A stretch of 64,000 nt of DNA, taken from positions 1,860,001 through 1,924,000 of the forward strand of contig NZ_JAJJMM010000001.1 in the NCBI RefSeq assembly GCF_020905295.1, written 5' to 3'. Origin of the DNA: Flavobacterium piscisymbiosum (GTDB taxonomy: Bacteria; Bacteroidota; Bacteroidia; Flavobacteriales; Flavobacteriaceae). The translations under genes were made by a program, and so were the position numbers. The notes below the pieces were generated by a model. It searched no databases and was not told the origin of the DNA. It saw only the letters and a list, made by a program, of their open reading frames with translations. Shown in pieces: positions 3,371-47,910 of the stretch; within the stretch, counting starts at the first letter, position 1, and the number at the start of each line of letters is the position of its first letter.

Positions 3371-3403
3371 GTTTTTAATGTTTTAGGCATTACACACAGT
3401 GTT

Positions 3404-3504
3404 GTCATTCCGAGGAACGAGGAATCTCCGCAAGAAGCTCGACAAAGATTGTCCGCTTTACTGTGCGGAGTTACTTGCGGAGATTCCTCGTTCCTCGGAA
3501 TGAC
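3404..3504. repeat. Large palindromic repeat (GAGGAACGAG family)
   Basis: Two exact 31-base arms at 3404-3434 and 3474-3504 are reverse complements. Each arm carries GTCATTCCGAGGAACGAG. The 39-base centre contains GACAAAGATTGTCCGC. On either strand the transcript would form a very long hairpin. A related copy is broken by the IS110 element at 46412-46421 / 47622 onward, so this is a dispersed element and not just the metF terminator. Confidence 0.9.
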
Positions 3505-3531
3505 AAAAAAGATGTGAAAGTTATAGTGTGG

Positions 3532-46296: not shown

Positions 46297-46374
46297 AGCT
46301 AATCCCGCTATCCGTTCCAATCTTTTGTGTCCGCCGCGGCGGACACAAAAGGATTTCCACTTCTATCGGGGCTA
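46297..46374. repeat. Imperfect hairpin element with a perfect 28-base centre
   Basis: The centre at 46323-46350 is TTTTGTGTCCGCCG followed by its exact reverse complement. The outer arms (CTAATCCCGCTATCC / TCTATCGGGGCTAG) pair imperfectly. This is a third palindrome family in the window and lies 47 bases from the IS110 end. Confidence 0.8.
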
Positions 46375-46424
46375 GGATATTCATTTTTATGACAACATTT
46401 TCGTATAGTTTGTCATCCCGATTT

Positions 46425-47399
46425 CTATGATAAAACCAAATCTTTTTGATAAGGGATTTGGTTTTTTATTACCGCAAAAACTCGATGGATTATTTTATTT
46501 CTCACAGCGTTTAAAACGCTCATTTTATTCTTTCCTTCATCAACTTTTCTAATGTAGTATGTTTTTAAATCATTATCTGATCGGACCGCACTCATCGCTG
46601 CCAGATGCAGAATAGTTTTTAGATTTTTATCAGCAAGCATTGATACTCCAGGCCTTCTTTTTAATGATGTTCCAGATTGAAAATCAAAAGGAACTACTCC
46701 GCTGTAACATGCCATTTTCCTAGGATCAGTTATAGTTGTAAATCCTTCTGTTTTTGACAACAATGTCCATGATAAAACCTGACCTACTCCAGGAACAGAT
46801 TTAATCAATTTCTGTTTCTGATTAAGGCTCTCTTGGTTTTGGATTATATTTTCAATATCATTTTCTATTATCTTAATTTGGACGTCAATATCTCTAAGAA
46901 GCTTAATATTTAAGTCTTTTAGGTGTTTATCTAAGCCAATACTTTTCATGAGTTTGTAATCATGCTGCTGTACTATTAGCTGCTTTTTAATCTTTATTCT
47001 TGAAGCTCTTTCGGTTAATAGTATTTTTATCTTTTTAATCGAACAAGAACATGGCTTCCATTCTCTGCTTTCCTGATGATTTTTTTCGATGAAATTACAA
47101 ATGCGAAGAGCATCAATTTTATCATTTTTACCTCTAACAAGTCCTATACTTTTTTTGATATGTAAAGCTGATATTACATAAACTTTAAAATCAAATTTTT
47201 CAAGCACTTCAAACAGATTCCAATTATATCTGCCTGTATTTTCCATAGCTATAATTACCTTTTCTTCCGAGTAGCTTTTGAAGAAACGTTTAATAACAGG
47301 TACTTTATTTTCAATGGAAAAGTAGCTTACTGTCTCATTTTTAATACAGATATCCAAAGTCTTACTGCTGATATCAATGCCGATAATAATGTTTTTCAT
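46425..47399 (-). CDS. IS110-family transposase (DEDD recombinase)
   Basis: A 324-residue recombinase that moves the element through a circular intermediate, guided by a bridge RNA. The RuvC-like N-terminal domain has the DEDD set: D9 (GIDISSK), E53 (MENTGRYN), D93 and D96 (KNDKIDALR). The C-terminal Transposase_20 domain (from about 200, SVPGVGQVLSWTLLSKTEGF) includes QSGTS with the probable catalytic Ser242, then RRPGVSMLADKNLKTIL. The length is typical of IS110 recombinases (about 325). The ATG at 47399 (MKNIIIGIDIS) is preferred; the frame also has ATGs at 47444 and 47441 directly after the RNA candidate. Confidence 0.93.
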   Translation of the reverse strand: MKNIIIGIDISSKTLDICIKNETVSYFSIENKVPVIKRFFKSYSEEKVIIAMENTGRYNWNLFEVLEKFDFKVYVISALHIKKSIGLVRGKNDKIDALRICNFIEKNHQESREWKPCSCSIKKIKILLTERASRIKIKKQLIVQQHDYKLMKSIGLDKHLKDLNIKLLRDIDVQIKIIENDIENIIQNQESLNQKQKLIKSVPGVGQVLSWTLLSKTEGFTTITDPRKMACYSGVVPFDFQSGTSLKRRPGVSMLADKNLKTILHLAAMSAVRSDNDLKTYYIRKVDEGKNKMSVLNAVRNKIIHRVFAVIKNQIPYQKDLVLS

Positions 47400-47444
47400 A
47401 ACTTTGCTTTTACGATTCAACAAATGATTTGAGAAATTCATCAT

Positions 47445-47580
47445 AAGCTCAACTCCTTGATAACGGGTCTCTAGCCCAAATTTCTATCTGAGTCTTTGAT
47501 GAAAGGGAAGCGAAAGTCTTAATCAAGATATGAGTCACAAACTCAGAGGAACGAATAGTTTACTTTTGCTTCCTTTCTCA
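47445..47580 (-). ncRNA. Candidate IS110 bridge RNA
   Basis: Read on the minus strand, the region folds into two loops. Loop 1 is closed by GAAAGGAAGCAAAAGT (47577-47562) with ACTTTCGCTTCCCTTTC (47517-47501). Inside, TCGTTCCTC (47554-47546) equals the left target plus core, a TGAGT/ACTCA hairpin follows, and ATCTTGA (47529-47523) pairs with target TCGGGAT using two G-U pairs. Loop 2 is closed by CTCA/TGAG. Inside, ATAGAAAT (47487-47480) equals the element's far end, a GGG/CCC hairpin follows, and AAGGA (47458-47454) pairs with the element's near end TCCTT. The order, target loop before donor loop, matches IS621. Confidence 0.75.
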
Positions 47581-47621
47581 ATCATAAATTTAATTAAATT
47601 TCAAAAAGCAAATCTAAAGGA

Positions 47622-47790
47622 GGAACGAGGGATCTCTGCAAGTAACTCCGCAAAGAAAATCCAATCTTTGTCAAGTTACTTGCGAAGATTTACTTTGTCT
47701 GTTCGCTATCGCTGGAGTCTCCTTTCGGCGAAATTGACAATTGTGGTTGTGATGGAGGGAAAAGGGCTTCGACTTCGCTCAGCCTGACAA
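47622..47790. repeat. Remnants of two palindromic repeat families right of the IS
   Basis: 47622-47690 continues the interrupted GAGGAACGAG element (GGGATCTCTGCAAGTAACTC, then CAAGTTACTTGCGAAGATTT). 47766-47789 is half of the CTTCGACTTCGCTCAG family. Both have decayed relative to the intact copies at 3404 and 12575. Confidence 0.7.
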
Positions 47791-47814
47791 AGCAATGAAT
47801 GGAAATAGTGCGCA

Positions 47815-47855
47815 TAAAAAAAAGCTTTGTCAAAGTTTTTAAACTTTGACAAAGC
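47815..47855 (-). terminator. Terminator of the M16 peptidase operon
   Basis: GCTTTGTCAAAGTTT (47824-47838) and AAACTTTGACAAAGC (47841-47855) pair exactly; on the minus strand a T run follows. A near-identical hairpin ends the AsmA gene at 54365-54395. Confidence 0.88.
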
Positions 47856-47910
47856 CTCTAGAAATCTTAGTCCCGAAGCCTCGGGATAGCAACTTAGTAC
47901 CTCAGAACCT

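Follow-up and report, generated by a model that had tools for sequence, protein, structure and literature searches.

The IS110 element and its recombinase

The window (the whole stretch of 64,000 nucleotides that was analysed) contains an IS110 element of ordinary size on the minus strand, extending from position 47621 to position 46420 with the TC core at both ends included. These limits were determined by comparing four copies at different places in the host genome with intact repeats. The left end of the element is 177 bp in length and precedes the recombinase ORF (46425..47444, minus strand, 339 aa), and the right end is located three bases past the stop codon of this ORF. A long left end of this kind, with the predicted guide RNA upstream of the recombinase, places the element in the IS110 group and not in IS1111. 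The core is TC (47621-47620 on the left and 46421-46420 on the right), which occurs at both junctions and once in intact sites. The right end (46421..46440, minus strand) contains a -33-like TTTG (46440-46437) and the left donor ATAGAAA-T, both assigned from the sequence.

The recombinase scored over the cut-off for PF01548 (59.3 bits, cut-off 29) and PF02371 (64.2 bits, cut-off 21.3), and phmmer matched it to the solved chains of ISCro4 (E 7e-18) and IS621 (E 1e-15). In an alignment that was read by eye, D24, E68, D108, D111, and S257 align with residues of the IS621 and ISCro4 chains, which suggests that the catalytic positions are conserved. The assignment of these five positions is based on what we take to be the catalytic residues of IS621, S241 alone being named in the literature consulted. 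The true start of the protein is probably Met16 (MKNIIIG, position 47399), the start at 47444 being too early, because several relatives align only from residue ~12-13. With a start at Met16 the region encoding the putative RNA discussed below would be wholly non-coding.

The four copies of the element in the host genome are 99-100% identical and every one lies inside the same palindromic repeat. Their sites are slightly different versions of this repeat: CCCTCGTTCC-TC-GGGATGACA (two copies), CCTTCGTACC-TC-AGGATGACA, and TCCTCGTTCC-TC-GGAATGACA. Insertion occurs without duplication beyond the core, as the four own copies and 33 relatives have the same ends with TC at both junctions where the flank is present.

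The target repeat

In the window the left target arm of the repeat, ending in CCTCGTTCC followed by the core TC, occupies 47620..47691 (minus strand) and was recognized from repeat matches elsewhere in the genome and from intact sites. The right target, GGGATGACA, is found at 46411..46419 (minus strand) and was assigned by comparison of flanks and intact sites. There are 41 intact sites of the form CGTTCCTCRRRATGACA in the genome and none for a reversed control pattern. Eight inverted pairs of neighbouring sites account for sixteen of the 41, and one such pair is in the window itself (3403..3505, plus strand), where an intact, unoccupied palindrome presents two inverted arms, each a potential site. 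Resident Y1 transposases were considered as owners of the repeat and rejected: PF01797 has 12 matches in the genome, and none of the six loci examined (L111-L116) was flanked by the repeat.

Two further observations concern the surroundings and the core of the repeat. A hairpin, TTTGTCAAAGTTTAAAAACTTTGACAAAG, lies upstream of the repeat at 47812-47860, and at another locus (L173) a similar hairpin separates a target repeat from an orphan IS110 right end. In a sister clade (L096-L105) the left junction has an AC core and the right junction a TC core in 10 of 10 insertions; the first core base thus seems to be unexchanged and need not match. The AC core is also present in an intact repeat of another species (flank of L091).

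Guide sequences in the left end

Four short stretches of the left end, all read on the minus strand, match either the target or the ends of the element, and the coordinates given for them in the first-pass annotation were found to be correct to the base. The left target guide with the core (47546..47554, TCGTTCC TC) is TCGTTCCTC at 47554-47546, a repeat of the left target and core at 47628-47620. The right target guide, ATCTTGA (47523..47529), is composed of five nucleotides and a core-pairing GA, and pairs with TCGGGAT (46421-46415) by means of two G-U pairs. The left donor guide, ATAGAAAT (47480..47487), repeats the right end at 46428-46421. The right donor guide (47454..47463) was assigned by analogy with IS621 and can pair discontiguously with the left end TCCTTTAG: AAGGA (47458-47454) pairs with TCCTT (47621-47617), and after a 2-nt bulge (TC) a second half, TTA (47463-47461), which was absent from the earlier annotation, can pair with the TAG of the left end.

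The likelihood that such matches arise by chance was evaluated with 20,000 dinucleotide shuffles of the left end. A match to the left target was obtained in 3 of these and a match to the right end in 234, while a match to the right target with at most two G-U pairs occurred in 3,943 (20%) and AAGGA in 6,594 (33%); a second AAGGA is present in the real sequence. All four matches in the proper order were found in 0 of 20,000. The earlier statement that four independent matches make chance unlikely therefore holds for the set as a whole, but two of the matches are weak when taken alone and the word independent is somewhat overstated. It follows from these counts that the left target guide and the left donor guide carry most of the case for a bridge RNA in this sequence. 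The right target guide and AAGGA are convincing only via the relatives of the element.

Guides and insertion sites among relatives

Group A was defined as 37 insertions with a recombinase identity of at least 45%, four being the window element's own, and contains 21 distinct left ends. Fourteen loci were excluded (10 second records of the same places and four loci, L064, L066, L068, and L069, that are additional copies of the L059 element within one genome), as were all loci below 45% identity. The hosts include Flavobacterium genomes, Lutibacter, Tamlana, Pedobacter, Salegentibacter, Gillisia, Mucilaginibacter, and further genomes. The assignment of the element to a flavobacterial branch was too narrow, as Pedobacter and Mucilaginibacter also have relatives (62% identity) whose ends are the same. 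All 37 insertions have the ends TC-CTTTAGA and CATAGAAA-TC. The target flanks vary and comprise several forms of the repeat, a CTTCGACNGGCTCAG...TGACA type, and other sites such as AATCAC-TC-GAAGTGA.

In group A the position of the left guide was set manually, at the TC preceding the apical hairpin. The last seven non-core bases of the left guide match the left target at a mean of 5.07 positions, compared with 2.47 when guides are shuffled among elements, and the five bases of the right guide match the right target at a mean of 4.0 positions, compared with 2.42. For the left and right target guides each, 0 of 20,000 permutations reached the observed value, both with all 21 distinct left ends and with a less redundant set of 16. 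These permutations treat related elements as exchangeable; a partial Mantel test with protein distance controlled, which lessens the effect of kinship and does not remove it, gave r values of 0.76 (left) and 0.62 (right), with 0 of 5,000 permutations reaching them. When the whole left end was allowed to compete with no position assumed, the guide site was best or joint best for the left target in 30 of 36 insertions and for the right target in 31 of 36, one insertion per side having been dropped for a missing flank. Relatives at different insertion sites thus have correspondingly different target guides, as the bridge-RNA reading in the first-pass annotation demanded.

The misfits on the left side are L011, L012, L057, L071, L087, and L089, and those on the right side are L004 (a copy of the window element in its own genome, one mismatch), L010-L012, and L083 (two mismatches). 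For six loci outside the counts, the left target fits at the guide in L025 (9 of 9 positions), is joint best in L064 (7 of 9), and is a misfit in L066; the right target fits in L068 (7 of 7), L069 (6 of 7), and L026 (7 of 7 when the guide is taken from L013, which belongs to the same MAG), L025 and L026 being fragments. It was also noticed by eye that in L010, L014, L015, and L071 the guide and the left target share GAC, the RNA having one extra nucleotide. In L015 the spacing is shorter in both guide and target, which suggests a 1-nt bulge in the guide-target pairing. One genome (G363) has five copies, L083-L087, of which L084-L087 have one common left end and L083 differs from them in both guides; the left guide of L083 fits its own site and the right guide does not, as if altered after insertion.

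The two G-U pairs of the right guide in the window could be read as an addition to the bridge-RNA interpretation, namely as an adaptation and not drift: U would be used where the repeat family has A or G, so that one RNA fits many variants of the repeat. At positions 3-7 of the right target the non-Watson-Crick oppositions are 24 wobbles versus 13 mismatches, compared with 7 versus 43 for the left guide, which is in the direction expected of such an adaptation. However, the insertions cannot be counted as independent, wobbles are favoured by purine variation in the right target on its own, and the C at position 5 of the window guide mismatches the A variants that make up 23 of the 41 sites. 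We therefore consider this adaptation unlikely.

The donor ends are invariant in group A, so the donor guides can be checked only against the more distant group B. This group comprises 48 loci of ~33-40% identity, most of them from other Flavobacterium genomes and isolated ones from elsewhere in the phylum (L022 and L073), and has a core of GC or one in which the first base is unmatched. Thirty-seven of the 48 loci were counted; the other 11 were dropped because their ends were missed by the rule or the flank was short. In 35 of 37 insertions the best or joint best windows for the left target, the right target, and the right end lie in loop 1, loop 1, and loop 2, respectively, in the proper order and spacing. 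The same fit is seen in 20 of 22 distinct elements, whereas 300 rounds with shuffled targets averaged 4.0 and reached at most 10 of 22. The misfits are L036 and L052, and L043 was counted as fitting although ten windows tie as best for its left target. Between clades the left-donor match varies in step with the right end, being ATAGAAA in group A, ATAGAAT in GC-core elements, and ATAGTAA in the others. One pair of elements, L039 and L108, is separated by a single right-guide base in the printed RNA stretches, and a corresponding difference is present at the partner base of their right targets (T facing A, A facing U); L108 is mismatched at the next base, fits 6 of 7, and is outside the group B count because its left flank is missing.

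Structure of the predicted RNA

A fold of the single sequence shows two stems with apical hairpins. The target-binding loop is closed by a stem with a 5' arm at 47562..47573 and a 3' arm at 47506..47517 (minus strand, alignment fold and covariation) and carries an apical hairpin, TGAGT...ACTCA, at 47531..47545 (minus strand, single fold and covariation). The donor-binding loop is closed by arms at 47490..47495 and 47446..47450 (minus strand, covariation) with an apical hairpin, GGG...CCC, at 47465..47477 (minus strand, alignment fold and covariation). The region before the target loop, in which a 5' stem-loop would be expected from IS621, is poorly alignable and shows only an AT-rich hairpin in the fold. 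No Rfam match overlapping the predicted RNA was found at E values up to 1.

Folding energy was discarded as evidence for the RNA, as the z score is -0.91 and an equal or better fold is obtained in 37 of 200 shuffles. The proposed structure rests on covariation instead. In a plain alignment of 21 sequences, the 23 pairs of the four helices are formed in 91.8% of cells compared with 78.3% in shuffles, and 15 of the 23 pairs have changes on both sides. Sliding one column drops the pairing to 48-54%, a comparison in which the unslid version is favoured because RNAalifold, run on this same alignment, was the source of most of the counted pairs. Further pair types are no more frequent than in shuffles (444 of 500). 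The stem of the target loop alone has changes on both sides in 10 of its 12 pairs, and the apical stem of the donor loop hardly varies and thus provides little information. Covariation of the stems agrees with the bridge-RNA reading in the first-pass annotation, which its absence would have counted against.

Sequences formed by the joined ends

Promoters with a -7 box of the type discussed here have a TTG partner at a usual spacing from the box. The left end contains the box TAGATTTG (TAnnTTTG; 47609..47616, minus strand), which is placed 20 nt after the right-end TTTG (46440-46437) only when the ends are joined. In all 21 elements a TTG would then lie 19-20 nt before TAGA(T/C)T, and exact TAnnTTTG is found in 13 of the 21. 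TAnnTTTG is the sigma-A -7 box of flavobacteria as described in PMC9723704, and the joined ends would therefore form a Bacteroidota-type promoter. The TTTG is kept in L013 despite a different codon, which may reflect selection on the DNA.

Handshake guides, as defined in PMC11208158, can be proposed by analogy for both loops. The putative handshake guide of the target loop is TT (47521..47522, minus strand), facing the donor AA before the core, and that of the donor loop is GT (47452..47453, minus strand), the first base of which would face target base 7. At the latter position an A is opposite a target T in all 3 elements that have it, and a G is opposite C in 14 of 18. Shuffles reached the observed value in 151 of 20,000 (16 elements) and 78 of 20,000 (21 elements), and among 10 GC-core elements of group B only one shows the match. 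Neither the handshake positions nor the joined-end promoter were included in the earlier annotation.

A predicted bridge RNA directing insertion into the repeat

The anatomy of the element, the identity of its target, the covariation of guides with targets, and the covariation of the stems are directly established. They support the earlier proposal of an IS110 bridge RNA, and the 177-bp left end almost certainly encodes such an RNA, which would guide the recombinase to the repeat. Loop 1 of the RNA would pair with both strands of the palindromic repeat (left target TCGTTCC, core TC, right target GGGAT) and loop 2 with the element's own two ends once joined (ATAGAAA of the right end, core TC, CTTTAG of the left end). 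By homology with known elements, the IS110 element would be excised as a circle, and joining of the ends would create the promoter TTTG-N20-TAGATTTG that drives transcription of the RNA. After binding the RNA, the DEDD/serine recombinase would use it to carry out strand exchange between circle and target at the TC core, with no duplication beyond the core.

A different possibility is that only the target part of the RNA matters, as first described for the seekRNA of ISEc21, and that the donor loop is incidental. In its favour, ISEc21 works with an RNA of 58 nt, the abundant form being 74 nt (PMC11187229). Against it, loop 2 repeats the right end, the match moves between clades together with that end (ATAGAAA, ATAGAAT, or ATAGTAA), and most invariant columns of the alignment are in the donor loop; we consider this reading very improbable. 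Least probable of all is that the recombinase itself recognises the repeat and that the left-end matches are by-products, such as target pieces captured at insertion, since, despite a conserved recombinase and closest relatives that target one repeat family, differing guides occur at matching sites in a fixed register and beyond what protein distance accounts for, also in group B with its other cores, and the guides lie within covarying stem-loops.

Flavo-1 and other units with IS110-like right ends

Flavo-1 was listed as a motif in 2010 (PMC2864571), and its matches are described in PMC9723704 as lying both sense and antisense, with no real clue to function in that description. A match to the Flavo-1 RNA family (RF01705) adjoins the element in the window at 46297-46377. 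The host genome has at least 139 matches, 131 of them over the family cut-off, among the 150 of 1,828 first-look candidates that were scored; Flavo-1 is thus a repeat family. Some copies consist of a hairpin, an A-run, and then 16-35 bases identical or nearly identical to the IS110 right end, followed by TC and RRRATGACA. This composite form was found in 8 of 28 parsed copies in the host genome under a lax rule (up to 6 mismatches in 25 for the right-end match, without a shuffled control), the 28 being those parsed from 52 fetched loci of the 139 listed, and 12 of the 52 having been picked for likeness to the flanks in the window. The exact composite pattern occurs in 10 of 398 Flavobacterium genomes, with 23 copies, eight of them in one genome, and a reversed control pattern gave none. 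RRRATGACA is also present to the left of the unit in 21 of 28 composites, with TC before it in 18.

These composites may have arisen by fusion of a right-end remnant to Flavo-1 at the A-run and later amplification, or the unit may be a passenger of a bridge recombinase. No IS110 left end or ORF was found near the Flavo-1 composites, which are a subset of the copies considered (46297-46377 in the window and loci L117-L122, L169-L172, L176, and L206-L224). Nine of the 10 genomes with the exact composite lack a group A recombinase among the best five candidates scored per genome, which argues against current mobilisation by a resident element, and Flavo-1 as a passenger of the present element is not established. 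In a search for precise empty sites at two loci, the cluster of repeat, IS, and Flavo-1 was absent from the relatives examined. It is more unlikely still than the G-U adaptation that composites of the form LT-TC-[RRRATGACA - Flavo-1 - TTTGGTTTTATCATAGAAA]-TC-RRRATGACA are, or formerly were, non-autonomous passengers inserted into the same repeats by bridge-RNA recombinases acting in trans, with a left end that imitates the right target half. If they were, the donor of the composite would read ATAGAAA-TC-GAAATGACA, the motif listed without function in 2010 would be explained, and a new kind of bridge-RNA cargo would be at hand. A separate type of unit is present at L178 (G052:C64:36060-37700), where seven tandem units of ~173 bp each end in TTTTATCATAGAAAAC, an IS110-like right end, followed in most cases by GCAATGACA or GGGATGACA.

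Comparison with known systems

The elements compared constitute a natural reprogramming series in which related recombinases have target guides that differ in step with the insertion sites, the printed RNA stretches of L039 and L108 being one right-guide base apart. These elements also provide material for choosing bridge recombinases for Bacteroidota, with a junction promoter of the local type and a core that is TC or GC, not CT. Palindromic repeats (REP) had been reported as insertion sites of IS110 elements by 2006 (PMC1525189). Such colonisation, reported in proteobacteria, occurs in Bacteroidota as well, by what is apparently the same RNA logic. Bridge RNAs have been predicted in 85.7% of catalogued IS110 elements (PMC11208160). 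A search of titles and abstract openings, with most subscription journals and the 2024 supplementary lists outside its scope, found no literature on a bridge RNA in Bacteroidota or on guide RNAs for Flavobacterium IS110 elements.

ISPa11, ISPpu9, ISPpu10, and ISRm19 resemble the present element in their specific insertion into palindromic repeats of the host, but their hosts and repeats are different, and the passages of the 2006 account that describe them are without a guide RNA (PMC1525189). ISEc21, a member of the IS110 family that uses a seekRNA (PMC11187229), also has an upstream non-coding region, an RNA that matches both target strands, and a circle with a promoter at the joined ends. 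As far as can be compared by description, it differs in that its target is in IS3-family transposase genes and a donor loop is not part of the description.

The closest likeness is to IS621 of E. coli (IS110 group), for which the bridge-RNA mechanism was published in 2024 (PMC11208160). As described in PMC11208160 and PMC11208158, IS621 has a DEDD and serine recombinase, a REP-type target, and a bridge RNA of 177 nt in its left end, which is 177 bp here. It also shares the succession of target loop and donor loop, the left guide in the same sense as the top strand and the right guide as its complement, the right donor guide that pairs discontiguously around a 2-nt bulge, and the promoter formed when the ends are joined. 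The differences are a core of TC (GC or an unmatched first base in group B) in place of CT, an AT-rich hairpin in place of a clear 5' stem-loop, a junction promoter of the Bacteroidota type, and a left guide with apparently one extra nucleotide in four relatives (L010, L014, L015, and L071). The mechanism is that of IS621, already known, with variations in the core type, in the promoter type, and possibly in the left guide, which may be bulged.
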